A DNA stretch of 64,000 nucleotides from assembly GCA_030710605.1 (NCBI GenBank), contig CP092877.1:42826406-42890405 (forward strand). The letters are read 5' to 3'. This DNA comes from Cordylochernes scorpioides. Taxonomy: Eukaryota; Arthropoda; Arachnida; Pseudoscorpiones; Chernetidae. Of this stretch, positions 1 through 63,510 are shown piece by piece; position 1 is the first letter of the stretch; every line of letters begins with the position of its first letter. The notes under the pieces were generated by a model. The model was given only the letters and a program-made list of their open reading frames with translations, ran no database searches and had not been told where the DNA came from. A program made the position numbers and the translations under genes.

Positions 1-2883
1 GCACCAACCAGCCCCCACCCCATCATCAGACTTTGAGCCGTCAGTGTAGATGGTAAGAGATGATGAGTCTGGAATGGATTTATCATAGGTAATGAGGTGG
101 ACCTCTGCTGGATGGCAGTACCATTGTAGAGGGGGTGAGTCAACCTGTTCTGGAGTGGGATCTGTATCCATATCAGAGCCTGGGCGTATTAATTCCGCCC
201 TCTTGGATTCGAGGGTTAGGATATTGTTAATAGGTACCAGGCCTGATAGGACCAGTGCGGCGTCAGTACTAAGAGTGTTGTAGCCCCTGCATATAGCCAG
301 AGCGAATGGTCTCTGCGCTGAGCTAAGGATCTTGTGCGTCAAGCTGTTGTTTTCCTGTCTCCACCAAACCGAGGCGGCATAGCAGATGATTCTTTCGAAG
401 CCTGCTTTATAGAGTCTTTTTGTGACCAAAGGCGCCAGGCCGCGGTTCTCCCTCGTCAGTCTTCTCAATTCCATTCCCTTGGATAGAACTTTATCCCTTA
501 TGGATTTTGCGTGATCGACCCATGTTAGGTGTCTATTAAATGTTACCCCGAGGAATTTCAGGGTATTTTTAAAGAGAATATGGTTGCCGTCCATTCTTAT
601 AGCTGGGTTTCTGACGCCTCCTTTTCCCGCACCTTTGTTTCGGCCTGCAGGAGCGACATATAAGGCAGCGCTTTTTTTCGGGGCGATATTTAGTTTTCTC
701 GAGGTTATCCAGGTATGGAGGGTCTCCAGAGCTCTGTTGGTAATATTTTCGACCTTAACGCGGCTTGTGCTTGTGCAAATGAGAAGCAGGTCATCCGCAT
801 ATGCTATTGTATGGACGTTTTCATCTTTAAGGATACTAAAGATCGGGTCCATATATAGGATCCAGAACAGAGGGCCACTATTGCTGCCCTGTGGACAGCC
901 TCTTGTGATTTGTAACGGGTCAATAAGACTCTGTGGGCTAGCGTCTGAGGATACCTTTCTGGAGCACAGGTAGCTGTGTATCATAGTCCTGAGATAAGGG
1001 GGGACTTCCTTTTCCTTTAGGGATTCTCTGATGATATCCCAAGAGGCGTTGTCAAACGCTCCTTCGATATCCATAGAGATGACTATCGAGTGGTTATTAA
1101 CCAACCTAGATTTGTGTAGGATGTCCTTAACTTTCCTTAGGGCCTCTTCACACGATTTACCCCACCTAAATCCAAACTGAGAGTCGTTTAGACGGTTCGT
1201 GACCTGTAGATGATATGTAATCCTGTTGACAATAATTTTGTCGAGGATTTTCCCAAATAAGTTCAGGAGGGTGATAGGTCTCAGGGAGGTTATGTCCCGA
1301 GGGTCTTTGTCTTTTTTCTGTAGAAATATAATGTGACCAATTTTCCAGGCTTGTGGGAAGTAACCCAGGAACAGGCAGGCGTTATATAGGTTATTAAGTA
1401 TCACGGGGTGTTCGTCATTAAGGAATAGTATGGGGTTTCTCATAATACCGTCAGGCCCAGGGGCCTTTTTGTGACCCATTGTCCTGATGGCACTGGATAT
1501 TTCCACCATGGAGATGAGGGGATAGTAGTGTTGCTGGCCTGAGTCTTGTAACTCAAAGGGTGTTGTATCTGTGTCACTTGTTGTGTCCAGATACTTTTGG
1601 GAGATAAAGTATGCAAAAGTTTCGTCAGCTGTTTTGGTTAATTCCCCGTTGGTTTTTCTAAAGGAGTGAAAGGTTGTTGGCCTAAGCTTCTTCCCACTGA
1701 TGATTTTTTATGGACCTGTAAACGGATTGGATGTTGTGATAGTTTCGAAATGTTTTTTGTAAAATGAATTTTTGGCCCTCCTGATTGCTCTTTTATATAT
1801 GGCCAGAGCTACCCTAAACCTTTGGACCCTGTTAAGTCTTAGTGTTGCGTCGTTATCTGTGGCTTTGTATAATCTTTTAAGAGCCATTGCCTTATTTTTT
1901 AATGTTTGGAGATTCTCATTCCACCAAGGGTTGTGTCTTTCTTTGTATCTTGGAGGGTTGAGAGTTTGTTTATTTATTTTTTTACAAGAGGAACCAATGA
2001 TGTTTGTTAGTAAATCTATATATTCATCTAGGTTGCCAGTATTGCAATTCTGTGGGTTAATTACGGGTAGGTTATTGATTTGTCTATTAAGTAGGTTCAC
2101 GAAACGTTGCCTCTTAGCGTAATTAACGTTAAACCTGGGTCTATCCAGGGGGGGTGTTTCTTGGCTGTCTGGTGTAGTGAGTTTTAAGAGAATGCTAACA
2201 TGATCGCTAGTGCTTAAAAATGGTTCTGCTGTCCACGAGAGGGACTGTGAGATGTTGAAGGAGGAGAATGTGTGGTCAATATGAGACAAATGTCTTGTAT
2301 TGTCAAAGGTAGGGCGAGATATATCCGAAATTATTTCTAATTGTTTTGTGTAAACAAAGTCGAGTAGTTTTTCTCCTCTAAGGTCGTTGTGATTGCCACC
2401 AAAAAGACTGTTGTGAGCATTGAAGTCTCCAATTATTATGTGGTTATCTAGGCCTACCTTGTTACATGCAGCCTCCAGGTCATCTAAGAGAGTGGAGAAG
2501 GCGCTGTCCTCTTGCGTGGGGTCCACAGGGGGCACGTAGCAGTTGGTGATGAAGGTGGATCTTCCCTCTTTTAGGATTTGGATGGTGGAAGTATGTGTGG
2601 AAGTATGAACGCAGAAACTGCGTACCATGGGGTTGATAAAAATCAGCGACTTGTTATCATGGCTTGAAATCCTCTGCCACGTCATTTTGTATCGGTCATC
2701 ATTAGGTGGAGGTTCTTGTATCAAGATTAAGTCGGCGTCACCAAGGGCGGCGTGATGCAGGAGATTATCCACACTGATATAGCTCCTGCCCAGGTTTTGA
2801 GAAAAAATGTTCAGGCTAGACATGGTATTATTATTAAGTTTTTGTGCCTTTTTATTTACTTTCATATTTTTAAATCCTGGCAT
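1..2883 (-). pseudogene. LINE ORF2: endonuclease-reverse transcriptase-RNase H, one in-frame stop
   Basis: I translated the minus strand from the ATG at 2883 to the window edge. It stays in one frame except for a single TAA at 1708-1710, between endonuclease and RT. The first ~390 residues are an apurinic-type endonuclease with LIQEPP (catalytic Glu), GDFNAHNS, an IDHTF Asp and a final SDH. The RT follows with GPDGI, FGFRWGKS, GAFDNA, GCPQGS and the catalytic YADD at about 800-810. The last residues before the edge, IYTDGSKSD, begin an RNase H domain. The protein nicks chromosomal DNA and copies its own RNA at the nick. Because everything else is in frame, the stop is a point mutation rather than deep decay. 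Readthrough is possible but unsupported. Confidence 0.9.
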
Positions 2884-2906
2884 TTTGTGGAGTATTCTTC
2901 AATTTG

Positions 2907-4418
2907 TTAAAGTCTAAAATGTTTTAGTGCCGAGACCTTGTTCTTGTAGCATTGACATTTATATGCCATTGAGTGGTGGTTAGTGTCAAGTTTCAGAGCT
3001 GGGTTGGCAATGTTGGCCTTGGTGCAATTGACGCACTTGGGTGCTTCTTTACAATTGGCGCTCTGATGGTCTGAAGCCCCGCAGTTCAGGCATAATGTTT
3101 CCTCTTTTTGACAGACCTTCGTTCCGTGAAAGCCAGCGCATTTACCACATCTCCGTGGTGAGAAGTGTTCCGTCCAGCTAAGGGAGGTCCAGTTCCCATG
3201 TAGCCTAAGCAGGCCATTTTCCAGGGTTGAGGCAGTCTTCAGTGAGGTGAAGGAATCTCCATCAATTATGGAGAACCAGGTGTTCCTGTTGAATCTATCT
3301 TCGTGGTGCCTGAAAGGTCTGATGTCGATATTCGGGAGGCTGCTCATTTTTTTAACGTAATTAATTAAATCTTCCCTGTTCATATCCTTGTTAATTCCGA
3401 TCAATTTTATGACCGGAACTGGCCCTTTTGGTATCTTGACTATCAATTTTGAGGCATCTACAGATTTCATTAGAATGTCTCCAATTTTTTGCGCATCCTT
3501 CAACTCAGGGACCTCAATTAGGCACCCTTTGTTTTTGAGGGTCGATAGTTTGGCCCTACTTATCCCTAGTTCAACTAGGGGGACACGTTTCTTTATTATT
3601 GCCTGCAGGTCGGTATGGTCAGGATGTTTTGCATCCACAGTGACCCTTCCTTTCATAACATTGCGATGGGGCCGTTCGTTGTGCTGAATGGTCCTGGATG
3701 AAGTTGTAGGGTTATTATGTTTAAGCTCCTTCAGCTCCTTCGCGAGGTTAGAGATCGTCTTTTCTTCTAATTCTTTTATGGATTCCTTTATACCTGACTG
3801 GTCCGGTAAGCTAACTATTTTGGAGCAATTCTCCAAAATCTCCGCTGAACAAGACGACATAACTCCTTTTATGTTGGAGACCTCGATAGCGAGGCTCTCC
3901 AGACGGGACATAATTGTTTCATTTTTTGATTCAATCAGCGAATCTATTTCTAAAACTTTAGAAGAAAATACTTTTTCTATCTTGCTCTTGCATTTCCTTT
4001 CTGTCTCTTTAAGCAGTGGCACCACTGTTTCATCGATCCCGCCCTGTACTGATTCTTGAATCAAATTGGCTACCTCGGCGTTTTGAGACCCAAAACCTTC
4101 ATTTAGGGTCTTTTCGAACCTATCGCACTTTTCGCCTAGTTGCTTCACCTCTGAAAAGGTGGTTTTTACATTGTTTTCTATGGTTTGCATGTTCTTTGAC
4201 GTTCTGTCAATGCGCTCATGAATGACAAGTTGTCCTATATCCTGGGGCATGGACTCTAGGAGAGCTTTCGCATTAGTAACAGTAGATTTAAACAGTCTTT
4301 TAATGTTCGCATCTTCCAGCATTTTAGGTTTCAAGGCCACGATGTCTTCTAAGTTCTCCATGAAGAGGACAAAAGAAGGAAATACCGATTGGACCTTGGT
4401 GATAAGGCGCTTGTCCAT
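2907..4418 (-). CDS. LINE ORF1: Gag-like RNA-binding protein with CCHC zinc knuckles
   Basis: 503-residue intact ORF directly upstream of ORF2. The N-terminal ~230 residues are charged, rich in Lys, Glu, Leu and Ser, and look helical or coiled-coil. The C-terminal ~80 residues carry zinc knuckles: CGKCAGFHGTKVC (C-x2-C-x3-H-x4-C) and CLNCGASDHQSANC (C-x2-C-x4-H-x4-C), then a third looser cluster starting CVNC. This is the usual architecture of ORF1 in I/R1/Jockey-type LINEs, where the protein coats element RNA and helps deliver it to the target. The ATG is preceded by an A/T-rich stretch. No frameshift or stop is present. The gene is a transposon gene, not a host gene. Confidence 0.88.
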   Translation of the reverse strand: MDKRLITKVQSVFPSFVLFMENLEDIVALKPKMLEDANIKRLFKSTVTNAKALLESMPQDIGQLVIHERIDRTSKNMQTIENNVKTTFSEVKQLGEKCDRFEKTLNEGFGSQNAEVANLIQESVQGGIDETVVPLLKETERKCKSKIEKVFSSKVLEIDSLIESKNETIMSRLESLAIEVSNIKGVMSSCSAEILENCSKIVSLPDQSGIKESIKELEEKTISNLAKELKELKHNNPTTSSRTIQHNERPHRNVMKGRVTVDAKHPDHTDLQAIIKKRVPLVELGISRAKLSTLKNKGCLIEVPELKDAQKIGDILMKSVDASKLIVKIPKGPVPVIKLIGINKDMNREDLINYVKKMSSLPNIDIRPFRHHEDRFNRNTWFSIIDGDSFTSLKTASTLENGLLRLHGNWTSLSWTEHFSPRRCGKCAGFHGTKVCQKEETLCLNCGASDHQSANCKEAPKCVNCTKANIANPALKLDTNHHSMAYKCQCYKNKVSALKHFRL

Positions 4419-4440
4419 TTTTTTTTTAATTTGGCAAATA

Positions 4441-5703
4441 TATATTAAATAAAATATAAGTATATTAGTAGTCGCTATTGAGCGAATAAATCCTTCTATG
4501 TTCTGGGGTAGGTTTCAAAGTTAAAGTATAGAAGATTTACCTTCTTCCAGGAGCAGGTCTTGATAGGTGTTTACTCGTCGAGAGCTGGGTGAAGACTCCA
4601 TTTAGCTACAAATAAATTGGATAACACTTTCATTCTACTGTCACTAACAAATCGGTCCACTAACAGAAAAACTAATTAATTCAATAACTAATCCCGCCTA
4701 CTGATCCCCAATGAATTAAAATATCTATTCTTTCATTAATAACCCAAAACCAAGTCACCAGGTCTAGATTCTCTCGCCCTCGATTAACTTGTCCACTTAA
4801 CAACGACACTTAGAACCAAGGACATTTTACCTACAACAATCATACAAACCCACATATGTTATAAAAAAAAACCTTGACCGGTTAGACAGATCGCCGTGTT
4901 TCCTCCACACACAATATAAATGCCGCTTTAGGAAGAATCACGTTTTCACCTAAACGTGGCGCAGGGAACAAAAAATCGACAACATTAGGACTCAGTAAGT
5001 TTCACAGTTGAAAACAATGTGACCCACGAGCCGCGTTAAACATAAAACGATTTCGATAAGTTAGAACAACTTATGCCAACAAGACCAACTCGACTTATTT
5101 CTTAAAGGCCAACTGGCAGCAACTTTAGATTCTTTCCCAATATATAACTTCTATGTATAATCTTACTTACTTTCTTTCTCGATGGATATTTTTTATTTTT
5201 AATATCCTTTATATAATCATTATCTAGCACTTGTAATTGTTTTTTTACGTCAACCAATCAGTTTAGACTATTGTCATTTTAAATTAATTACTTTTTCCTC
5301 TTTACCAAATTGTTTTTTACTTTTGCTTTATGACTCTATTTTATAATCAACTTTATATTTTATCTTTCATATGTAATAATGTCAAGTTTATATTTCATGT
5401 TTATATCACTAATTTGCATTTGTCATTTTATATTTTCTCTTACTTTATAAGATATCCAGATATCTACTACCACATGTTCCACCACGTGACTGTATATAAC
5501 TTGTTATTTACTGCAAATAGAAAGCATCACATAATATCATTCTGTACCGCGTAAGACTCTAATAAAGTATAGCAACTGTACAGATAGAAGGAATGGAGAA
5601 TAACAGGAGAAAATTAAGGTTAAAACTAATCAGGCCTAAAGGAGAATAAGAAAGTAGGCCTATCGAGCCCCGTCCAATTTTTACGAGGTCGCGGCCTTCC
5701 TGG
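4441..5703. other. Non-coding, AT-rich stretch; possible LINE 5' region
   Basis: No convincing ORF or repeat is seen. The first few hundred bases could include the LINE 5' untranslated region, but no promoter element or target-site duplication is recognisable. The remainder is ordinary AT-rich sequence. Confidence 0.4.
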
Positions 5704-7092: not shown

Positions 7093-7859
7093 AGAAAATA
7101 GATAGAAAAATATATAAATGCGTAATTTCAAAAGTCGGCTTCGCAAAAAACACCCATTAGAATAAATCAATTTCAACCAAATTTCGAACACTTATATATA
7201 ACAAGAGCATTTTTTGCGTAACATAAAAATATGTAACTTGGCTATTTTAATTTTTTTATCAATTAAGTATACAAAAATTACCACAGAATTAATATTTCAA
7301 TGCTTTTTTATTCAGTGATGCTAAAAATGAAAATATTTGAAAATAATACGAATTAAAATTTCTTTTTAAAAAGGCACTCCCGGGAGGCGAACCTATTCTA
7401 CTAAATGCCTGCGTTTGAAACGATGGCTCTCTATAATATATTATTATTACTATTCAACTATTAAAAAGCGTTATAATATACTTATGCAAAAAAAAGTATC
7501 GACAAAAAATAAATATTAAAAGAGGACCTAAATGTTTGACAAAGGTAGAAAAGTTTAAATTGCTGAGTGTGAGGATTATTTTCTCCTTGTTCAACATTTG
7601 CGGACACATTGGGTAGATTATTAGCTTATATTGATATCCAGGTTCAAGAAGATGCTAGGTCAAGAAAAAAATGTAACTAAGAATTCACATTGTTGAACCG
7701 TGAACAAGCATTCTGAAAAGCCATACCAACAATGAAAATTTTACCAAAATGTACAAAGGAATTAGATGTCCAGGATCAGTTTCAGACATTATACAATGCG
7801 AAACAATCCCAGCGAAAGGTAGCTCCACTACAGGACGGTCGTCGAGGAGGAATCGGAGC
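7093..7859. other. AT-rich non-coding DNA
   Basis: No gene, clear repeat or element end is visible. The sequence is A/T-rich with short homopolymers and becomes GC-rich only at the start of the minisatellite. Confidence 0.5.
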
Positions 7860-9115
7860 AACGAGCACGGCGAGAGGCGGAGAATCGAGCACATCGAAGA
7901 TGCTGAGAATCGAGCACGGCGAGGGAGCTGAGAAGCGAGCACGGCGAGGGAGCGGAGAAGCGAGCACGGCGAGGAGGCTGAGAATCAAACCCGGCGAGGA
8001 GGCGGAGAATCGAGCACGGCGAGGAGGCGTAGAATCGAACACGGCGAGGAGGCGGAGAATCGGGCATGGCAAGGAGGCGGAGAATCGGGCACGGCGAGGA
8101 TGCGGAGAATCGAGCACGGCAAGGTGGCGGAAAATCGAACACGGCGAGGAGGCGGAGAATCAAACCCGGCGAGTAGGCGGAGAATCGAGCACGGCGAGGA
8201 GGCGTAGAATCGAACACGGCGAGGAGGCGAATAATCGGGCATGGCAAGGAGGCGGAGAATGGAGCACGGCGAGGATGCTGAGAATCGAGCACGGCGAGGG
8301 AGCTGAGAAGCGAGCACGGCGAGGGAGCGGAGAAGCGAGCACGGCGAGGGAGCGGAGAAGCGAGCACGGCGAGGAGGCTGAGAATCAAACCCGGCGAGGA
8401 GGCGGAGAATCGAGCACGGCGAGGAGGCGTAGAATCGAACACGGCGAGGAGGCGGAGAATCGGGCATGGCAAGGAGGCGGAGAATCGGGCACGGCGAGGA
8501 GGCGGAGTATCGAGCACATCGAGGAGGCGGAGAATCGAGAACGGCGAGGAGGCGGAGAATCGAGCACGTCGAGGATGCGGAGAAACGAGCACGGCGAGGA
8601 GGCGGAGAATCGAGCACGGCAAGGAGGCGGAGAGTCGAGCACGGCAAGGAGGCGCAGAATCGAGCACGGCGAGGATGCGGAGAATCGAGCACGGCAAGGT
8701 GGCGGAAAATCGAACACGGCGAGGAGGCGGAGAATCAAACCCGGCGAGTAGGCGGAGAATCGAGCACGGCGAGGAGGCGTAGAATCGAACACGGCGAGGA
8801 GGCGGAGAATCGGGCATGGCAAGGAGGCGGAGAATGGAGCACGGCGAGGAGGCGGAGAATCGAGCACGGCGAGGAGACGGGGAATCGAGCACGGCGAGGA
8901 GGCGGGGAATCGAGCACGGCGAGGAGGCGGAGAATCGATCACGGCGAGGATGCGGAGAATCGGGCACGGCGAGGATGCGGAGAATCGGGCACGGCGAGGA
9001 GGCGGAGAATCGAGCACGGCGAGGATGCGGAGAATCGAGCACGGCAAGGTGGCGGAAAATCGAACACGGCGAGGAGGCGGAGAATCGATCACATCGAGGA
9101 GGCGGATAATCGGCG
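7860..9115. repeat. 25-bp minisatellite, about 50 units
   Basis: The unit is close to GGCGGAGAATCGAGCACGG plus CGAGGA; identical positions recur at exactly 25-bp steps (for example 8881 and 8906). Variant units show higher-order duplication: a block around 8096-8225 recurs at 8671-8800 (575 bp, 23 units), and one at 7921 recurs at 8296 (375 bp, 15 units). The array is GC-rich in an AT-rich region. Because 25 is not a multiple of 3 and the unit has no stop in most frames, several long overlapping ORFs appear on both strands, with a 25-residue period. I treat these as by-products of the repeat. Confidence 0.93.
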
Positions 9116-12689: not shown

Positions 12690-13155
12690 CCTAGCCCTAG
12701 CTCGTCACCAAGCGCGACAAGACCAAAAGGTTTTGTATTGACTATAGAAAGGTGAATGAGCTAATTAGCTCTGATGTCCATCCCCTCCCGATGATCGAGG
12801 ATATACTCGACCGCCTCGCACAGGCCAAGTATTTCTCCACGGCCGACATATCCTCCGCGTATTGGCAGGTCCCAATACACCCCGATTCTCGACCACTGTT
12901 GGCCTTTGCCACGCTCGAAGGGTTATACCAGCCCCCTCGATTGCCTTTCGGGTTAAAAACCAGCCCTCAGATCTACGAACGAGCCATGAGTCAGGTCCTA
13001 CAGAGACACGGACTTGACTGTGTGGCACATTATTTTGATGACTTCATCATTTTTTCCAACACACTGGAGGAACATCAAAACCACCTGCGACAATTTTTCG
13101 CCTTTTGCGAGGTAGAGAAGTTACAACTTAACTTCGCGAAATGCGAATTTTTTTA
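12690..13155 (+). pseudogene. Element 1 reverse transcriptase
   Basis: RT core of Ty3/Gypsy type: RDKTKRFCIDYRKVN at the start, then HPLPMIEDILD, FSTADISSAYWQV, LPFGLKTSP and the catalytic YFDD at 13031-13042. The frame is intact from about 12710 to 13155. An extra T in a T-run at 13147-13154 shifts the frame just before the connection domain. The catalytic residues are present, so the break is small. Confidence 0.88.
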
Positions 13156-14030
13156 AGCAGTCCATAGATTTCCTAGGCTACACCATCACAGCTGGTACAA
13201 CCACACCGCTCACACGCAACACAGATATTATCCACGCCATTAAACAGCCGCACAACCGAAAAACACTACAATCCTTTCTAGGCGCTGTGAACGTCTATAA
13301 CAAATTCATCCCGGAATACGCCCGCTTGCGGACACCACTCAACAACCTTCTCAAAAAGGATGTCGTGTGGGTCTGGGATGAAACTTGCCAAGAGGCGTTC
13401 ATTAGCCTGAAGGAGAGCCTCACACAACACCCCATTTTACACCTTTACTAAGAGGGCCTGCCATGCCAGGTGTATTGTGACGCATCCACCCTCGGTATAG
13501 CAGGCATCCTTAAGCAGGTTCACCCTGATGGGAACGTATATCCAGTCCAGTTTTTCAGTCGCACTCTGCGTTCAAACGAGCGAAACTATTCCATCTCTGA
13601 ACTTGAGTGCTTAGCAATCGTTGAGAGTGTGGAGAAGTTTCGCATCTATCTGATGGGCAGAAAATTTATTATATTTTCTGACCATCACGCATTGCAGTGG
13701 CTGAAGACAATCAAAAACCCGTCAGGCAGATTGTTTCGATGGAGTTTACGGCTGTCGAGTTACGAGTATGAGGTCCGCTACATAAAAGGAAAACACCAGT
13801 ATGAGGCAGATCTCTTGTCCCGTAACCCGTTCTGTGTGTTCTTAGACGCATCCCTTATTAAGACCCATCAGCCTTCTCCATCGGGAGAGTCTAGCCTGAC
13901 CATTGATCACAATGGACTACATACCGCTTCCCGAAAAGGTGTAACAAAAATTATAATCCCCCAAAACACTCGTCCACCAACTCTTACAAACAGTACACGT
14001 AAAATACAACCACCCCGGTATTTCACAAAT
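13156..14030 (+). pseudogene. Element 1 connection and RNase H domains
   Basis: The frame continues from the RT after the shift: DFLGYTI, LGAVNVYNKFIPEYA, then a stop at about 13449, then RNase H. The RNase H acidic residues are all visible: YCDAST, SELECLA, FSDHHALQWL and YEADLLSRN. Further small breaks lie near 13950-14040, inside the integrase zinc-binding region. In element 2 three of these four acids are lost. Confidence 0.82.
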
Positions 14031-15501: not shown

Positions 15502-17447
15502 AAAGAAACAAAACCGATGCCGGAGGGAGAACACCCAATTCAATTAGAGCACGTGCAGATTCAATTAAAAGAACAATTAGGCGTTGAGCAAAAATAAATT
15601 AGGGAAGCCGGAGACCGTTTCCCCACACGACAATAAGACGTCCGCCATTACTCAAATTACTTGCAAATAGAGGGTGGATAGATTTAGAAAAGGACCTTGC
15701 TTTTCCCCACACATCCGCCATTCTTCCGGACTCGGATCATATTCCCATTTCCTCGCGACAAAGACGCCGGTCAGCTCAGCTACATGCAAATAGAGGGGGG
15801 ATAAATTGGGAATCACCCCGGCGGGCCCCTTGTTTTTCCCCCACACATCCGCTAATATAAATTGAGGTCAGCGCTGTGGACGATCTCTAGTGTCGCCCAG
15901 TTTGGATCCCAGTTGAACCTACATATCGACTTTTACAAAAAAAAAACACAATTCAATTGCACTCTCACAAGAGACTTAAGAAGTTACCGACACTCCAAAT
16001 GAGTTCACATTTCTATTTTTGTTTCTAAAGACTTCCAAAACTCTACATTTTTCACACCTAGACACACAGGTGTTAAATTTTAAAACACGCAGATCTCAAG
16101 GTTAATTATGAACAAAACACGCACATAACCACTTAAATGATAGGAAAAACTAGGTAGCTAAGCTTTCGAGCTTGCGTCTCTTCCGAAGGGATTAAACAAC
16201 CTTTTTAGAAGGATCGAGGACTCTCCTCGGATCCTGTATTCAAAGTTTTGACTACGGTAACGATACCCGATATATAAAGTGGATATTGGGCGAGCACATC
16301 TTAAGTGCCCTAGGGAAATGCATAAAAATCCCTGGAACGCATTAAGGCTCGGGACACATTAACATACAACATTCGGCATTGAGATCTCGAAAAACAAACA
16401 CGAACACCAAGACAAAATACACACGTAAGGTTAATTAGATTCCCATGTCTCCTATATACATAATATAAAGCACACAATTGGGACAGATCACGTTTCTACC
16501 CAAGAGTCGCATAGGAAAGAGAAAAAATTCTACAAGGCATATAATTAATTGGTTGCGAACATGATTAGATTGTGGCATGTAATTAACAAGCGAGTTTACG
16601 AACCTCGCTATACATTTTTTTTATATCATTCATTTACATTATTTTTCTTATTTTAAAATCAAAATACTTAATCCAATTTATCATTCTTTCTTAATTCAAT
16701 TACTTATCATTTATTTTAGCAATTATTTACCATTTTATTTACCACTTCTTTTATTTTGTTCATAATTCAATAATTAAACAAATTTTTATCAACGAAACTC
16801 ACTGGTTTTTGGTTAAATTTAGATATTGTTTTATTTTTTGATTTACAAAAACCCTTTTTCTTTTTTTTTTCTCACCAATGCAACAAAAGCATTCACTTTG
16901 ATTTCTTCCAACTTTTTATTTTTATTTTTGATTTCTCAAAAGACCTAATAGAAACTCCCTCGACTTTCTCAATTTCGAGTAGAATATAGTTAGGCATTTC
17001 TTTTTTTCTCACCATGCAACAAGCATTTTTCTTTTTTTTTTCACCATGCAACAAAGCATTTTTTTTTTCACCATGCAACCAAGCATTCACTTTGATTTCC
17101 TCCAACTTTTTATTTTTATTTTTGATCTCTCAAAAGACCTAATAAAACTCCCTCGACTTTCTATTCCCAATTTCGAGTAGAATATAGTTAGGCATTTCTT
17201 TTTTTTTCCACTATGTATCATAGTATTCATTTTGATGTCTTACAATTAAAGAATTTTTTTTATTTCTATTAATTATACGCAAGCTATATGTCATTAACAC
17301 CTTTTTCTTTTATCTTTTATATTACTACCAATGCTTGTATATAGCCTCTCTATAACCAACTAATTTTCCCACAAAATTATTTTTTTCCTTTACAGAACTC
17401 ACTCAGGTTCACCCCTTCGTAAATTCTTCACATGTAGGGGGCGCATC
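15502..17447 (+). other. Element 1 long 3' non-coding region with repeats and polypurine tract
   Basis: No coding capacity. It is similar in order and wording to 39922-41925 in element 2. From about 16860 to 17230 it contains tandem units with CACCATGCAACAA and T-rich runs, and TTTGATTTCTCAAAAGACC repeated. A purine run TAGGGGGCG near 17435 lies just upstream of the right LTR and probably serves as polypurine tract. Confidence 0.7.
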
Positions 17448-18214: not shown

Positions 18215-19634
18215 CACTGCGTGACATTGAAAATGGAACACCAAGAAATAGTGGCCAGAAAATTATGCAAATTTCAGGGTGGACGCGCCTAACCGAGTTA
18301 TGCAAATGATGTAAAATGCGCAGCTCTCGTGCGAACATGGAGTAAGATATAAGGGAAGTAACTTGCAGAAAGGACAGTATTCGTGTCGTTATTTCTTCAA
18401 GGAAAATCATTGTAGAAATTTTGTTCTTGTGTCAAAAGACACGTGTAATAACAGAGAATGCCAGGTCATCGTAAACGGAGGCAGTTCAAGCAGACAGACG
18501 CTTTTACGAGGGGCATGGTGATCGGACTGAAAAGGGCAGGTTGGTCCATACGTCAAATCGCAGCTGATACACACCTTGGTGCGTCCACGGTGCACCGACT
18601 GTGGAGAAGATGGTTGGAACAAGGAAATGTGGCAATTTATAGGAATGCCGGTGCAGCCAGAGTGACGTCAGCACGTGTGGATCGGCGTATCCTTCGACAA
18701 GCAGTGGCGGCCCCACAAGCCACTTGTACCGCCAACCTGCAAAAATGTGCAAGACACCCTAGATCATTCCATCTCGACCAGAACCATTTCCCTTCGATTG
18801 GTTGCTAATGGCTTGCACTCATGCCGTCCGCTAAGAAGACTGCCATTGACTCCACCGAATAGGCGCCAACGTTTGGAATGGTGCCGGGCTAGATCGACGT
18901 GGATGACGGAATGGCACAGGGTCGTGTTCTCAGATGAGTCGCGTTTCTGCTTGTCCAGTGATAGACGCCGTGTACGCGTGTGGCGTCGACGTGGAGAAAG
19001 GTCCAATCCGGCAGCAATTGTGGAACGCCGCACCGTGCGACAACGTGGAATCATGGTTTGGGGCGCAATCACGTATGATTCCAGGTCACCTTTACTTCGT
19101 ATTCAGGGCACTATGACGGCCCAACGATACGTTGATGATGTGCTGCGACCGGTGACACTCCCCTACCTTCAGGGGGTACCCAATGCCCTTTATCAGCAGG
19201 ATAACGCCCGACCGCACACTGCTCGCATTAGCCAACAAGCTCTGCAAGATGTACAGATGCTTCCCTGGCCACCGTACTCTCCTGATCTCTCACCAATCGA
19301 GCACGTCTGGGACATCATTGGACGCCGTTTGCATGCCTTGCCACAGCCGCGTTCAGAAGACGAACTTTGGCAAATGGTTGAGAGGGAATGGAGAGCCATC
19401 CCTCAGGACGCCATCCGTACTCTGATTGACTCTCTACCTAGACGTGTTGCTGCGTGCATCGCCGTCCGCGGTGGTCCTACTTGCTACTAAGCCGACGCCG
19501 TTCTCGCTCTGTATTATGACTATCATTTTGAAATAAAGATCACTTATTGTTCGTCCCTGTCTCTCTCTGTCTGCCGAGTTTCATCACTTTCTGGCCACTA
19601 TTTCTTGGTGTTCCATTTTCAATGTCACGCAGTG
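18215..19634 (+). mobile_element. Tc1-like DNA transposon, 1420 bp, perfect 47-bp TIRs
   Basis: The ends CACTGCGTGACATTG...  and its inverse are identical over 47 bp (18215-18261 and 19588-19634). TA dinucleotides flank both sides (18213-18214 and 19635-19636), the Tc1/mariner target duplication. A single transposase gene lies between. Perfect TIRs argue for a young insertion. Confidence 0.95.
18458..19490 (+). pseudogene. Tc1-like transposase with one-base frameshift
   Basis: The N-terminal half (18458-18745) has paired helix-turn-helix DNA-binding motifs (TRGMVIGLKRAGWS, ASTVHRLW). The C-terminal half (about 18740-19490) is the DDE domain: VVFSDESRFCL, YQQDNARPHTAR and SPDLSPIEHVWD. The two halves are in different frames, and the A-run at 18741-18745 is the likely site of one extra A. 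Only 32 residues separate the second Asp from the Glu, against 34 in Tc1. The transposase cuts and pastes the element at TA. Confidence 0.9.
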
Positions 19635-29739: not shown

Positions 29740-30720
29740 CTATTGGATCTCCTGCTTATTTTTGTCTCTGTGACTAAGTACCACACCAAGTCCATAGCTT
29801 GAGGCATCGCATGCCAGTACCAGTTCCTTTGTTGGATCATAGTGTGTCAATACTGACTCATTAGTCAATAATGATTTGCATTTATTGAACAATATCCGAT
29901 GTTCTCTTGTCCATTTCCAACGAGTATTTTTCTTCAATAACTTGTAAAAATGAGTTAAAATATGAGAGATATTCCTTATAAATCTGGCGTAGTACATCAA
30001 CATTCCGATAAATGATCGTAACTGACCAATGTTCTTAGGCTCAGGAGCATTAGAGACTGCTTGAATCTTGTTGATCAATGGATGCAGGCCGTTCTTATCG
30101 ATTCGAAAACTCAAGTATTCAACCGAATCAACAGCGAATCTGCATTTATTTTTATTCAATTTCAAGCCTTTGTCCTCTAATCTTTTAAATACCAGCTCCA
30201 ACTTGGCTTTATGCTCATTTTCATCTCTATCTGACACCAAAATGTCGTCAATATAACAAGCCACTCCTGGTATGTCAGCAAAAATGTTGTCCATCAACCT
30301 CTGGAATTTATTCAGTGCTACAGCCACACCATAAGGGAGTCTTTTATATGCAAACAATCCCTTCGTAGTATTTATATTTACTACTCCTTTGGCTTCTGCT
30401 AGCTCTACCTGCAGATAGGCCATTGAAAGATCCAGAGTTGAGAAGACTGTACTACCCGATAATTTAGAAAATATCTCATCTATCGTAGGCAATGGGTATT
30501 TATCCAATATAATTGCCTTATTTGCCGTACTCTTAAAATCTCCACATATTCTAATTCTGCGCGCGCGCGCCATCTTTCTTCAAAACTGGCACTATGGGTG
30601 CTGCCTAGTCGGCGTTATCAAGAGGCTCTAAAATTCCTTTATCTACCATATCCTCAATTCATCCTCTACCTTTTTTTTTTCATAGTAAAAGGCAGAATTA
30701 GAGCCTTCAAATCATTTTAA
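29740..30720 (-). pseudogene. Element B reverse transcriptase
   Basis: Ty3/Gypsy RT with RICGDFKSTAN, YPLPTIDEIF, FSTLDLSMAYLQV, LPYGVA and the catalytic YIDD. Upstream, PIVPVLKKDG and a Trp-to-stop change (TAG) near 30610 mark the missing finger region. A GCGCGC run at 30560-30570 encodes ARAR and may be a slippage site. A frameshift separates it from the RNase H at 29620. Confidence 0.86.
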
Positions 30721-39921: not shown

Positions 39922-41925
39922 AAAATTAACAAATCAGTGCCGAAGGAAAATCACCAGGCCAGTAAAAAAGGTAAAAAACCATTAGTTGAACAAAAACTAA
40001 TTAGGCGGCAGGAAGTGAGGAGGGTAGCTCCCGCGAGGCAATAAAAATATCGACCAGCAATCTCGTGCAAATAGAGAGGGAGTCTTGTTTGTCCCCACGT
40101 TGCTCCCCCGCTTCCGGTCTCTAATTACCATCTCCCCTTCGACCAGCAGTTAAATTAAGGCTAGATGGGGACTTTGTTCCTCCACATCGCCCAGCTTCCG
40201 GTTCTAATTACAGTGGGGGCCCCTCGTCTATTGAGGTCAATTGGGAACCTCTCTGGATGTCATCCCAGTTTTCATTCCCCATTCCAGCTGCATATCGACT
40301 TTTACAAAAATACAATTCAATTGCACTCTCACAAGAGTTAAGACGTTACCGACACTTCATAATGAATTCACATGTCTATTATAATTAATTCTTATTAATT
40401 TTTATTATTCTTTACAGACTTCCAAAAAACGCTACATATTCCACCTACACGTAGATATCACAGACCTTAGGATCTTGACGACACATAGAATTCGTTTCAC
40501 ACATTTCTTACACAAAAACTTCTAACATTTTCCACAATACACACAAAGACAAAAGAAAATTCTACAAGGCATAATTAATTGATGGCGAAAACTAAATGAT
40601 GGCATGTAGATACAAAAACGGGTTACAATCTCACTAATACATTTTCTTTGTTATATATCAATCATTTACATTATTTTCTAAAATTAAAATCAAAACATTT
40701 AACCCAATTTATCAATTTTATTCAATTTCTTATCACTTATTTTAGCAATTATTTACCATTTTATTTACCACCTCTTTACTTTTGTCATATTACCATTTTT
40801 CAACGAAAACTCATTGGTTTTCAGTTAAATTTAGACGTTAGATTATCCTTTATTTTACAAAAACATTTTTTAAAATTATTTTTCTTTTTCTTCATGCAAC
40901 CCAGCATTTTTCCTTTTTTTTTTCTCATACAACAAGGCTTTTTCATTTTTTTCTTTTTCAACCACGCCTTCACTTTGATTTCACTCAACCTTTATATTAT
41001 ATTATTTTTGATTTCTAAAAAGACCTCATGAAATTTCCTCGTTTTCCTTCCCAAACTCGAGCAAAAAAGTAATTAGGCATTTTTCTTTTTCACCAATGCA
41101 ACAAAGCATTTTTCTTTTTTTTTTTTCATCACGCAACAAGGCATTTTTTTCTTTTTCAACCACGCCTTCACTTTGATTTCACTCAACTTTTATTTTATTT
41201 TTATTTTTTGATTTCTCAAAAGACCTCATGAAATTTCCTCGTTTTCCTTCCCAAACTCGAGCAAAAAAGTAATTAGGCATTTTTCTTTTTCACCAATGCA
41301 ACAAAGCATTTTTCTTTTTTTTCATCACGCAACGAGGCATTTTTCTTTTTTAACCACGCCTTCACTTTGATTTCACTCAACCTTTATTTTATTTTTATTT
41401 TTTGATTTCTCAAAAGACCTCATGAAATTTCCTCGTTTTCTTTCCCAAATTCGAGCAAAAAAGTAATTAGGCAATTCATTTCTTTTTTCACCAATACAAC
41501 AAAGCAAATTTGTTTTCTCCCATCACACAACAAGGCATTTTTCTTTTTCAACCACGCCTTCACTTTGATTTCACTCAACCTTTATTTTATTATTATTTTT
41601 TTTTTCTCAAAGGACCTCATGAAATTTCCTCGATTTCTTTCCCAATTTCGAGCAAAATAGTAATTAGGCAATTTTTCCTTTTTCATTATGTACCATAGTA
41701 CTCATTTTATGTTTTCACCATTACAATTTTGATTTCTAGTAATTATAAGCAAACTATATAGCATTAATACCATTATTTTGTTTTATCTCTTATATCCTTA
41801 CCAATGCCTGTATATAACCTCTCTATATCCAATTAATTTTCACAAAATTATTTTCTTTTCTTTTATAGAACTTACTCAGACAAAAAAAAAACCTTCGTAA
41901 ATTCTTCACATGTAGGGGGCGCATC
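39922..41925 (+). other. Element 2 3' non-coding region with ~195-bp tandem repeats
   Basis: Parallel to 15502-17447. ACCACGCCTTCACTTTGATT recurs at 40961, 41159, 41353 and 41551, giving units of 194-198 bp that also hold GACCTCATGAAATTTCCTC and T-rich runs. A purine run TAGGGGGCG lies just before the right LTR. Confidence 0.75.
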
Positions 41926-42258: not shown

Positions 42259-42534
42259 TTATCAAGAATGGGTATTTGGCCAATTCTGGAATAATTAAAA
42301 ATCAACGAGAATAGTTGATATTTATTCCGATAGATGGCGCCAGCCATCAGCAACTTTCAGTTGCACGATAAGAAGATGCCTTTTTCTTAATTTATGCACC
42401 TTATCCCAGTACAATGTTACATTTGTACTATTTTTTCACATTGTGTAGCGTCCTCACGCAATTCTGGCCTTAACTACCCGTTTCATGATTTTTCAGGATG
42501 CCTTAATGACCATTTTTTTTGGTCGCTGAGGTAG

Positions 42535-42588
42535 AGCTTGCACCACGCTGATGAGGGCCAACAGCCCGAAACGCGTCCGTGGTTAGCT
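42535..42588 (+). ncRNA. Hammerhead ribozyme A1
   Basis: Core nucleotides are all present: CTGATGA (42548-42554) and GAAA (42568-42571). Stem II is GGGC/GCCC with loop CAACA. Stem I is CCACG (42543-42547) with CGTGG (42578-42582), extended beyond an internal loop by AGCT/AGCT. Stem III is the minimal palindrome ACGCGT, giving predicted cleavage after C42577. This is a type I fold as known from Penelope-like elements and retrozymes. Short stem III forms often work as dimers, which fits a tandem array. Confidence 0.88.
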
Positions 42589-42872
42589 TTTCTTGATTAA
42601 TCAAGAATGGGTATTTGGCCAATTCTGGAATAATTAAAAATCAACGAGAATAGTTGATATTTATTCCGATAGATGGCGCCAGCCATCAGCAACTTTCAGT
42701 TGCACGATAAGAAGATGCCTTTTTCTTAATTTATACACCTTATCCCAGTACAATGTTACATTTGTACTATTTTTTCACATTGTGTAGCGTCCTCACGCAA
42801 TTCTGGCCTTAACTACCCGTTTCATGATTTTTCAGAAGTCTTAATGACCAATTTTTTTGGTCGTTGAGGTAC

Positions 42873-42926
42873 AGCTTGCACCACGCTGATGAGGGCCAAC
42901 AGCCCGAAACGCGTCCGTGGTTAGCT
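42873..42926 (+). ncRNA. Hammerhead ribozyme A2
   Basis: 338 bp downstream of A1 and identical in all core and stem positions: CTGATGA at 42886-42892, GGGC/GCCC, GAAA at 42906-42909, CCACG/CGTGG. Predicted cleavage after C42915, so A1-A2 cleavage would release a 338-nt monomer. Confidence 0.88.
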
Positions 42927-43222
42927 TTTCTTGATTAATCAAGAATGGGTATTTGGCCAATTCTGGAATAATTAAAAATCAACGAGAATAGTTGATATTT
43001 ATTCCGAAAGATGGCGCCAGCCATCAGCAACTTTCAGTTGCACGATAAGAAGATGCCTTTTTCTTAATATATTTATATATATATATATATAAAGAGACAA
43101 AGGTCGCCTCTCCCGTCAAAATAGACGTCAAAACTAGACGCCATCTATTGACCGTCGCCGCAACTAGCGGCCTCGGGTCGGTGATAAAGCCACAAACACC
43201 AGCTTTGGCAAACTGAAAAGCG

Positions 43223-43277
43223 TCCAACTAGAGACCATGGTTTCGGGCTAATGGCCCTCGTCAGTCTAGGGCAGACT
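43223..43277 (-). ncRNA. Hammerhead ribozyme B1
   Basis: On the minus strand: CTGACGA (43258-43264), stem II GGGC/GCCC with loop CATTA, GAAA, minimal stem III ACCATGGT, and stem I CTAGA/TCTAG extended by GTCT/GGAC with one wobble. All invariant core positions match (CUGANGA...GAAA). Predicted cleavage is after the C following ACCATGGT. Confidence 0.85.
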
Positions 43278-43538
43278 TTATTCCATGAGATCCACACGGG
43301 ATCTAATGGAATCTTGACAATCTGCCAAAGAGGTGTTTATCTGGCAAAGTGGCTGGGCCAAATCTATGGCTAAAATATAGATGGAAATTTTGCCGGGAGG
43401 ATATTGATATGAAGAGACAAAGGTCGCCTCTCCCGTCAAAATAGACGTCAAAACTAGACGCCATCTATTGACCGTCGCCGCAACAAGCCTCGGGTCGGTG
43501 ACAAAGCCACAAACACCAGCTTTGGAAAACTGAAAAGC

Positions 43539-43593
43539 GTCCAGCTAGAGACCATGGTTTCGGGCTAATGGCCCTCGTCAGTCTAGGAAGGAC
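43539..43593 (-). ncRNA. Hammerhead ribozyme B2
   Basis: Same fold as B1, 316 bp away, with outer stem I GTCC/GGAC fully Watson-Crick. Core CTGACGA, GGGC/GCCC and GAAA are intact. Confidence 0.85.
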
Positions 43594-43781
43594 TTTGTTC
43601 CATGAGATCTACACGGATTCTCATGGAATCTTGACAATCTGCCAAAGAGATGGCGTCTAGTTTTGACGTCTATTTTGACGGGAGAGGCCCAGAGATTTGG
43701 CCCAGTCACTTTGCCAGCTAAACACCTCTTTGGCAGATTGTCAAGATTCCATTAGATCCTGTGTGGATCTCATGAGATAAA

Positions 43782-43836
43782 GTCCGCCCTAGACTGACGA
43801 GGGCCAATTGCCCGAAACCATGGTCTCTAGGTGGAC
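43782..43836 (+). ncRNA. Hammerhead ribozyme B3
   Basis: Plus-strand copy. GTCC (43782-43785), CCTAGA (43788-43793), CTGACGA (43794-43800), GGGC-CAATT-GCCC, GAAA (43814-43817), ACCATGGT, C43825, TCTAGG (43826-43831), GGAC (43833-43836). The loop differs from B1/B2 while the stems are kept. Confidence 0.87.
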
Positions 43837-44006
43837 GCTTTTCAGTTTGCCAAAGCTGGTGTTTGTGGCTTTGTCACCGACCCGAGGCCGCTAGTTGCGG
43901 CGACGGTCAATAGATGGCGTCTAGTTTTGACGTCTATTTTGACGGGAAAGGCGACCTTTGTCTCTTTATATCAATATCCTCCCGGCAAAATATCCATCTA
44001 TATATA

Positions 44007-48678: not shown

Positions 48679-50467
48679 TTGTACTATGAGGACATAGCCG
48701 TTAATATATCAAACACATTAGACCTCGAAGCCCAATATATCAAAGTCTACCTCAATCAAAACAAAGCCATAAACATATACAATATGTATCACCCTCCAAA
48801 CAATACACTTATTGACGATGGAACAATGGCTCAATTTCTTACAGACAACTCTTATTGTAGGTGACCTTAATGCCAAACATCAACTATGGGGATGTTCCAC
48901 GCCAAACCCAAGAGGCAAAATACTTTCAAACATATTTGACGACAATACCATCATGTGCTTAAATGATGGGAATCCTACCCATCATTCCTACAGCTATAAT
49001 ACTGCACAAGCCCTTGATATAAGTTTTTACTATCCTGACATTTTCCACAAATGCAATTAAGAAAAATTCTGGAACTTCAAAAATTCTAATTGGATATATT
49101 TCGAAAACACCATTATTAAAGCAGCCACAGTTTCAATACCAAGAGGTAATATTGAGAAATGGATTCCAAATTATACACACCAGGCAAAAAATATTCAAAC
49201 ACTTATAACTAAAAGAAATGAACTACAAAAAAGAGCACCCAAAACCAAACAAATTGTAGAACTGAACTGAACATTGTGAATGCAAAAATAAAAAGATTAT
49301 ACATAAATGTGAAAAGGGAAAAATGGAAACAAACTTGTGAAAACCTGAACCCAAGAAACCCAAATACAAAACTTTGGAATTTGGAAAACAAATTGACAGA
49401 TCCCAGTCACAAACCGAAAAAAAAAAACATATATAATTAAGAATACAGATGGTACACCAGCATTTAATGACAAAATTGCTGCCAATCTTTTAGGTAATTC
49501 ATATCAAATAAGTAGTAAAATCAAGGTTGAAACAAAAGCCCGAAGGATTATTCATGACTGTAAAAATGTCACCAGCACTCATAATATTTTCCATGAAAAA
49601 AATCATTATGAAAGAGCTAGCTTATGCATTAGAAAACACTGACCTTAACAAGACTCCTGGGCCAGATGGAATCCATGGCCGAATGATATCAAACTTGGGC
49701 AAAAATGGCAAAGAAAGACTTCTTGATATTTTCAATAACTCCTGGAAGACTGGAAAATTGTCTCAAGACGGTAAAACTGCAACAATAATTCCCATTTAAA
49801 AACTTGACAAATCTGCTGATGACCCAAAAAACTACCGACCTATCTCCCTCATAAGTATTTTCTGAAAATTAATGGAAAAAATTATACTCAGACGACTCAC
49901 CTACCACCCCGACACAAGAAATCTCTTACCTGAAGAACAATATGGATTTAGGAAAGGACATGGGACAATAGACCAACTCTTATTTTTCACACAAAAGGTA
50001 AAAGATGCACAAAACAGAAAACCAACTAACCACACAATAGCTGCTTTTTTAGACCTTACACAAGCTTTTGATAAAGTATGGGAAAACAATTTTTTACAAA
50101 ATTATACAAACATTTCAAAATTGACGGAAAAGCTATCACTTGGATAAATGATTCCCTTAAAAATAGATACATCAGGGTCAAATATGATGGAATTCTATCT
50201 GAAACCTTCAAATTGTATCAAGGATTACCACAAGGATCAGTCCTTAGCCCAAATCTCTTCACCCTATTTATTGCAGGCATAGAAGAAATATTTTCACATA
50301 AAACCAATATTGGACTTTTCGCTGATGACATTATTCTATGGAGCAGCAATACTAACTGGAAAAAAGTTGAAAGAGATTTGAACAAGACTCTTTTCCACCT
50401 AGAAAAATTTGCTAATAAACATAAATCGAGAAAATATCTTGTTGATGGAAGTTTCTTGCTTGTTTAA
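48679..50467 (+). pseudogene. LINE endonuclease-RT segment (inverted part)
   Basis: Plus-strand coding: endonuclease with IYNMYHPPNN, VGDLNAKHQLWG and ALDISFYYPD; then RT with KTPGPDGIHG, NYRPISLISIF, QYGFRKGHGT, FLDLTQAFDKV, GLPQGSVLSPNLF and the catalytic FADD near 50315. The wording is Jockey-like. Frame breaks occur at about 48850, 49070-49530, 49798 and 50095. Placed next to the minus-strand RNase H end, the order is what twin priming produces: the 5' part inverted, with the RT thumb lost at the join. Confidence 0.78.
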
Positions 50468-62917: not shown

Positions 62918-63510
62918 CTAGACGAATGGCCCGGGCAACGCCCGGGTTTTACCCGAGTGCGAATATATTTTAAAAACGTTTTAAATCAAATACTATTCGT
63001 TACAATTATAAATTGGCGCCATGGATGTCACTCTTGTGAAACGTCCCGTTCCAAACTGTGTGTTCTTAAAAGTGGCCGCTATTGACAGGGTGGTCTGTAT
63101 AGACAGGTGGATGTATCACACAGCTGATAACAGGGTTGCCTAGAGTGGCCGCTATGAACAGGGTGGTCTGAATAGACAGGTGTATGTATCACACTGCTGA
63201 TAACAGGGTTGCCTAAGGTGACCGCTATAGACAGGGTGGTCTGTATAGACAGGTGATTGTAACACACTGTTGATAACAGGGTTGCCTAAAGTGACCGCTA
63301 TAGACAGGGTGGTCTGTATAGACAGGTGGATGTATCACACAGCTGATAACAGGGTTGTCTAGAATGGCTGCTATAGACAGGTGTATGTATCACACAGCTG
63401 ATAACAGGGTTGTCTAGAGAGGGGCAGGGAGGACACGTGTTCGCCGGCAGCCAATGGGCGCGCATTCTATCCGTGAGCTTCAGACAGAATAAGGCAATTA
63501 TATAAGTAGA
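62918..63510 (-). mobile_element. Complete non-autonomous Helitron, 593 bp
   Basis: On the minus strand it starts TCTACTTATATAATTG at 63510 and ends with a 7-bp hairpin (GCCCGGG/CCCGGGC, loop GTT on that strand, 62930-62946), 8 nt and CTAG (62918-62921). The flanks are A (62917) and T (63511), the Helitron target. It shares its terminal 90 bp with the copy at 6107 and contains a 73-bp tandem repeat. It sits in the desaturase intron. Confidence 0.88.
63072..63420. repeat. 73-bp tandem repeat within the Helitron, ~4.6 units
   Basis: GTGGCCGCT-type starts lie at 63072, 63145, 63218, 63291 and 63364. Each unit contains ATAGACAGG, GATGTATCACAC and CTGATAACAGGGTTG; the last unit is shortened. Confidence 0.92.

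Follow-up and report, generated by a model that had tools for sequence, protein, structure and literature searches.

What kind of element is a tandem array of short units that encode no protein, and by what machinery would such an element be inserted into a genome? The question is raised by an array in a 64,000-nucleotide stretch of the Cordylochernes scorpioides genome (contig CP092877.1, positions 42,826,406 to 42,890,405), called the window here. A preliminary description had seen in it two full units and a truncated third, without any ORF, and had left the family unnamed. Direct reading, repeat detection and BLAST against the unit agree on this structure and place the array, which we call family A, at 42261-43072 on the plus strand. 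It runs from unit position 23 to 157 as one nearly complete, one complete and one truncated unit, with spacings of 339 and 338 bp. The unit is non-coding as described, the longest Met-ORF in its trimer being only 29 aa, and its GC content of 39.6% is low, as in metazoan non-LTR retrozymes.

Both full units carry a complete type I hammerhead ribozyme at a like position, as had been claimed, with cores on the plus strand at 42543-42582 and 42881-42920 (stem I to stem I; reading, motif search and Rfam E-value match). The core in both is CCACG-CTGATGA-GGGC/GCCC-GAAA-CGCGTC-CGTGG, where CCACG/CGTGG forms stem I, GGGC/GCCC forms stem II and stem III is merely the palindrome ACGCGT. The cleavage sites predicted earlier, after 42577 and 42915, agree with these core positions and would delimit a 338-nt monomer (42578-42915, plus strand), which folds far better than shuffled sequences (z -7.2); a 338-nt self-cleaved RNA from this locus is a fair inference. 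A strict search for type I hammerheads found five motifs in the window, two in family A and three in the neighbouring family B, and none in 60 dinucleotide-shuffled windows. The preliminary description had proposed a check with a covariance model. Both A sites match the Rfam model RF02275 Hammerhead_HH9 under an E-value threshold (E = 1.6e-4 and 4.5e-4), but their scores of 27.9 and 26.5 bits do not reach the curated cut-off of 52, and at the gathering threshold Rfam gave no match anywhere in the window. The low scores are perhaps due to the minimal stem III. The two 55-nt stretches around the A hammerheads folded no better than shuffles (z -1.05).

Genome-wide searches of the assembly (2.62 Gb, 24 contigs) returned 10,671 exact matches to the family A ribozyme pattern, 8,877 to that of family B and 9,619 to the minimal hammerhead pattern of some local Penelope-like loci; reversed-pattern controls for all three returned none. 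The genome-wide count suggested by the preliminary description finds unit A dispersed, and the family can now be named as a retrozyme family. The retrozyme-type interpretation of that description is also supported, in that the type I hammerhead, the palindromic ACGCGT stem III, the non-coding tandem units and the low GC content match those in the excerpts of PMC7229834. The units of 338 bp (A) and 317 bp (B) lie within the range of 150-450 bp for units in dimers upward, and both families are dispersed and multicopy with target duplications longer than 4 bp, as metazoan non-LTR retrozymes are. A and B look like non-autonomous retrozymes of the metazoan type, new families of a known kind. What is added to the earlier account is the inverted family B, the genome-wide dispersal, the head-to-head insertions and the Penelope-type ends.

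Family B, with a 317-bp unit, adjoins family A across a (TA)n stretch and extends over 43081-44003 (repeat detection and BLAST). We numbered unit A from the predicted cleavage site and defined two end sites in it, P1 at 143-162 and P2 at 194-208. The window copy of A has one arm, on the plus strand, ending on the right at P1, and this end meets the P1 end of B in the TA-rich stretch at 43068-43091 (reading and mapped ends). The left arm of B, with P1 as its outer end, occupies 43092-43652 on the minus strand (the BLAST match, 43081-43652, includes TA letters). The right arm, with P2 as its outer end, occupies 43645-44003 on the plus strand (BLAST); it covers unit positions 81-124 at 43645-43688 and then 181 round to 175 at 43689-44003, skipping 56 unit positions at 43688/43689. 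The strict motif search placed the type I hammerheads of B at 43228-43270 and 43545-43587 on the minus strand and at 43782-43836 on the plus strand (fold z -2.6 for the last). Under the E-value threshold, Rfam listed no hammerhead on family B, where the strict search gives three; it listed microRNA-precursor families alone, which we took as inverted-repeat artefacts, the strongest being MIR821, which scored 50.6 bits (cut-off 249) across the inverted junction of B. Unit B is non-coding (longest Met-ORF in a trimer, 53 aa), and its GC content of 47.6% is below the 50% stated in the text of PMC7229834 but exceeds the 45% of its Figure 1 legend, as far as these excerpts go.

Other repeats lie elsewhere in the window. 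A 25-bp minisatellite of about 51 copies at 7847-9112 is open in several frames on both strands. Tandem arrays with periods of about 194 and 198 bp, at 16864-17261 and 40948-41685, have consensus units that look alike over the part compared, and 63069-63381 holds 4.3 copies of a 73-bp unit. Pieces of mobile elements are found at 1708-2898 (-), 12701-13156 (+), 18666-19490 (+), 29740-30579 (-) and 50075-50467 (+), and their kinds include an endonuclease/RT ORF, reverse transcriptases and a Tc-type transposase.

The form of single insertions was read from 40 loci that group the genome matches of A, namely the window and L019-L057; L046 duplicates L045, which leaves 39. The A and B loci were the best-scoring copies and no random sample, and the outer ends of the A loci were classed by eye from alignment coordinates. 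Head-to-head arms were found in 31 of the 39 A loci, the minus arm on the left, the plus arm on the right and the RNA 3' sides outward, and the other eight have one arm orientation (window, L021, L024, L030, L037, L044, L050 and L054). The outer ends fall mainly at P1 and P2. Among the 31 two-arm loci, 28 have both ends callable, and 27 of these pair one P1 with one P2, L052 being the sole P1/P1 locus; the other three have one end elsewhere (unit position 293 in L029, 124 in L040 and 138 in L041). Without L038 and L057, whose P1 rests on BLAST ends, the count is 25 of 26. Other DNA splits the right arm of L031, L038 and L043, where the end on the far side of the interruption was scored, and L022 and L055 contain further pieces besides the insertion counted. 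P1 lies on the left in 13 of the P1/P2 loci and on the right in 14.

The same pairing recurs in family B, for which 11 distinct loci of the 40 scored were examined. All nine two-arm loci are P1/P2 (window, L013, L014, L016, L017 and L071-L074, the P2 end of L072, which has a variant tail, being called by eye), and L010 and L011 have one arm each. It also recurs in A', a diverged relative inside A loci whose hammerhead has the stem II GCGC/GCGC, in all three loci with both ends readable (L028, L039 and L041). The binomial probability of the pairing is 2.2e-7 for A and 5.5e-10 for A and B together, and the distance from P1 to P2 is 48 nt in A and 37 nt in B. A check on unselected hammerhead places agrees with the head-to-head layout and appears to support it. 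For each hammerhead pattern we took the first 100 places listed and looked for neighbours on opposite strands no more than 1.5 kb apart. These were -/+ in 29 cases and +/- in one (p 5.8e-8); counted by eye, the ratios were 6:1 for A, 10:0 for B and 13:0 for the Penelope pattern. The lone +/- pair, L075, is a patchwork whose ends are mostly neither P1 nor P2.

These layouts bear on two quite different explanations. Ordinary satellite DNA spread by recombination would give tandem units, and L050 does contain a longer plus-strand array, but the dispersed copies, the fixed outer ends with target duplications and the head-to-head arms contradict it, and we find it hardly conceivable. Alternatively, the inverted arms might be made by LINE-type machinery with twin priming. 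Twin priming uses both target strands on one RNA, which speaks for such an origin, as does the endonuclease/RT ORF at 1708-2898 in the window. It is weakened by the paired fixed ends, since two fixed end sites are each used once, and a like layout occurs in the Penelope-like loci of this genome; moreover, the outer ends inspected had no poly(A) and the flanks are mostly TA-rich. We therefore regard a LINE origin as improbable.

The target sites were analysed in 37 two-arm loci (29 of A and 8 of B). The longest match from flank to flank had a median of 13 nt, compared with 7 nt for mismatched flanks, and (TA)4 was present at 29 of the 37 insertions, compared with 53 of 1651 background windows. 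At the eight loci without (TA)4, the flanks matched over 10-14 nt in five and over 4-6 nt in three, whereas mismatched flank pairs among these same loci had a median of 5 nt and reached up to 12. It is usual for the target to be a (TA)n and to be duplicated over about 10-14 bp. Some (TA)n sites, in the window, L022 and L028, received more than one insertion, and it seems that an insertion, by its TA-rich ends, provides a target for another. Copies of A, A' and older pieces are neighbours at or close to one (TA)n in L022, L028, L039, L041 and L055.

Whether the two arms of an insertion come from one RNA can be judged from the variants that they share. We compared 29 two-arm loci, leaving out the composites L022 and L055 and excluding unit positions 143-163, 192-205 and 250-300, the first spectrum having had an indel-rich stretch. 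The recurrence rate of a variant was 0.69 for another pass of the same arm, 0.65 for the arm opposite and 0.13 for other loci (0.59, 0.60 and 0.11 over all loci). Every pass of a locus carried the variant in 88 cases, one pass in 141 and an intermediate number in 17; when passes were shuffled among loci, these numbers became 2.6, 371 and 67. Therefore, both arms and all their passes copy essentially one 338-nt sequence. The predicted cleavage site is spanned by 69 of 80 arm segments, and 59 are longer than one unit, which rules out a single linear cleaved monomer as the template. Template jumping between different monomers is disfavoured because the variants would then be mixed. The simplest reading is that the template was a circle, although a homogeneous linear multimer or later homogenisation would leave like arms. 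The hammerhead core of A is intact in 127 of the 133 passes that cover it. Variants found in all passes lie inside the hammerhead in 3 cases and outside in 85, compared with 24 and 117 for single-pass variants (Fisher p 0.0014, or 0.21 with repeated variants counted once), so any sign of purifying selection on the hammerhead is weak.

The uniformity of the passes also bears on the closest competitor, in which a like Penelope-type priming from two strands takes place on long uncut tandem transcripts and the ribozyme is irrelevant to insertion. Such multimers too would give arms longer than one unit, and Penelope hammerhead mutants still insert in vitro (PMC11167929). However, that a single sequence essentially underlies every pass of the two arms is best fitted by a circle, and we consider insertion from uncut transcripts rather unlikely.

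The inner ends of the arms tell how the arms may have been joined. In 30 loci they are uniform round the unit (KS p 0.75), and those of the two arms are unrelated, lying within 20 nt of each other in 4 of the 30 compared with 3.6 expected at random. In 19 loci the arms share an overlap of 1-18 nt, and in 11 a gap of 1-6 bases separates them. Such uniform and unrelated ends with short overlaps or gaps fit the end joining of two independent cDNAs. They contradict, for most A loci, a snap-back in which a single cDNA or antisense template primes itself, as proposed for Penelope palindromes in the excerpts of PMC3846280. A snap-back would suit L026, where both inner ends lie at one common unit position with an 18-nt overlap, and the near-perfect palindrome of the Penelope-like locus L068, but as the explanation of the inverted arms in general it seems very improbable to us.

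Four Penelope-like loci of the same genome, L067-L070, were compared, of which L070 has arms extending past the retrieved stretch. The other three contain Penelope-like ORFs with RVT_1 and GIY-YIG domains, and all three are head-to-head with one end longer, the two end types being paired as in A and B. The 10-bp sequence CAAATTATGC is duplicated on either side of L068, in which, unlike L067 and L069, no hammerhead was recognised; in those two the target duplications are uncertain because the flanks are tandem repeats. The L068 element, at 1051-4821, is a nearly perfect palindrome (99.7%) of 3.77 kb, and one of its sides bears a tail of about 22 nt. For GIY-YIG, 146 places were listed; neighbours on opposite strands no more than 4 kb apart were -/+ in 11 cases and +/- in none (by eye). 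A and B are not themselves Penelope elements because their units hold no ORF with RT and GIY-YIG, and unit A had no close sequence match in the ends of the Penelope-like elements retrieved. Two other observations were made: diverged P1-P2 modules of A adjoin a piece of a GIY-YIG ORF at L062:1000-1150 and L062:2860-2950, and a match to the twister-P1 ribozyme lies near a Penelope-like locus, at L069:475-529 (-), with 49 bits and E 1.7e-8, below the gathering threshold of 67.2.

The RNA of the P1-P2 region folds better than shuffles in A (z -4.9), in B (z -4.0) and in the Penelope-like L069 (z -2.0). A stem around P1 (GATAAG:CTTATC and relatives) is paired in 81.7% of cells, compared with 23-45% when slid, and three of its pairs are altered on both sides among the relatives of A. 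In a column-shuffle control, 43 to 127 of 500 shuffles reached its five measures, and the minimum-energy fold of A favours another hairpin. The recurrence of this stem with some compensating changes among the A relatives is suggestive only.

Taken together, these observations make it likely, in our view, that one RNA, probably a circle, is reverse-transcribed by a Penelope-type enzyme, which uses both target strands and starts at two sites. A tandem transcript would be cut by its own hammerheads into monomers of 338 nt (A) or 317 nt (B), which would be ligated into circles. A protein with Penelope-type RT and GIY-YIG domains would make staggered cuts, about 10-14 bp apart, in the two strands of an AT-rich site. 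Both freed 3' ends would prime on one RNA, with P1 as the start site of one end and P2 as that of its counterpart. Copying may take more than one turn of the RNA, after which both cDNAs would be joined at arbitrary positions, often with short microhomology. The outcome would be a head-to-head insertion that ends in P1 on one side and in P2 on the other and is flanked by a target duplication. As far as sequence can show it, the arm orientation, the paired end sites, the target duplications, the (TA)n preference, the arms longer than one unit, the variants shared by both arms and the like end structure of the Penelope-like elements in this genome are in place. The P1/P1 locus L052, the odd ends of L029, L040 and L041, the one-armed loci (8 of 39 in A) and the +/- pair L075 count against this reading.

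The strict pairing of P1 with P2 is not predicted by what is known of the Penelope protein, since its start sites in vitro are alike on both strands (PMC11167929). It is about an even call, in our judgement, whether every complete insertion is the work of a Penelope-type RT dimer that sits on a single ribozyme-made circle, its subunits obliged to take P1 and P2 from opposite strands and both free to run round the circle. If true, such a dimer would account together for the tail of Penelope, the copies lying head to head and the way animal retrozymes have spread.

Penelope elements have been named before as possible mobilisers of retrozymes. In the excerpts consulted, PMC7229834 based this proposal on the sharing of hammerheads, on tandem copies and on co-existence; PMC7761336, a review of 2020, repeated it, and the 2024 review PMC11722881 named LINEs or Penelope elements. 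In vitro, a Penelope protein was found to cut both strands and to extend them, and the "tail" lies between its two start sites; no start-site difference was seen between the strands, and the ribozyme was dispensable for insertion (PMC11167929). Penelope copies have head-to-head pLTRs with an optional tail on one and duplications of 8-10 bp, according to the passages of PMC3846280. The pairing of P1 and P2 in single retrozyme insertions and their origin from one template were not found among the literature matches listed or in the texts consulted.

Plant LTR retrozymes, as excerpted from PMC7229834 and PMC7761336, bear hammerheads, are non-coding and are thought to be mobile via circular RNA, as A and B may be. 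They differ in their type III hammerhead, LTRs, 4-bp duplications and Gypsy machinery, whereas A and B have type I hammerheads, head-to-tail units without an LTR arrangement and longer duplications. The hammerhead satellites of newt and axolotl can be likened to A by description, with tandem units of about 330 bp, a type I hammerhead and a very weak stem III; the weak stem III of axolotl HHR_Amex1 with its palindromic tetraloop is comparable to the ACGCGT of A. The insertion ends of these satellites are not described in the same passages of PMC7229834. Metazoan non-LTR retrozymes share with A and B the type I hammerhead and the non-coding tandem units of about 170-400 nt; the head-to-head arms, paired end sites and tail found here are not described for them in those passages. 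These last features are instead those of the GIY-YIG Penelope-like elements, which in PMC11167929 and the excerpts of PMC3846280 are head-to-head, with short target duplications, AT-rich targets, a hammerhead, two RT start sites and a tail on one end. Unlike these elements, A and B have no ORF and have a fuller hammerhead with stem II and loops. Judged by their sequence alone, the A and B insertions carry the Penelope signature. Short non-coding retrozymes make a clean record of it, since a letter-by-letter comparison of their arms is possible. The paired end sites bear on two puzzles of Penelope itself, the head-to-head inverted copies and the tail on one end, and they provide a signature tying retrozymes to Penelope that can be scored in any assembled genome.
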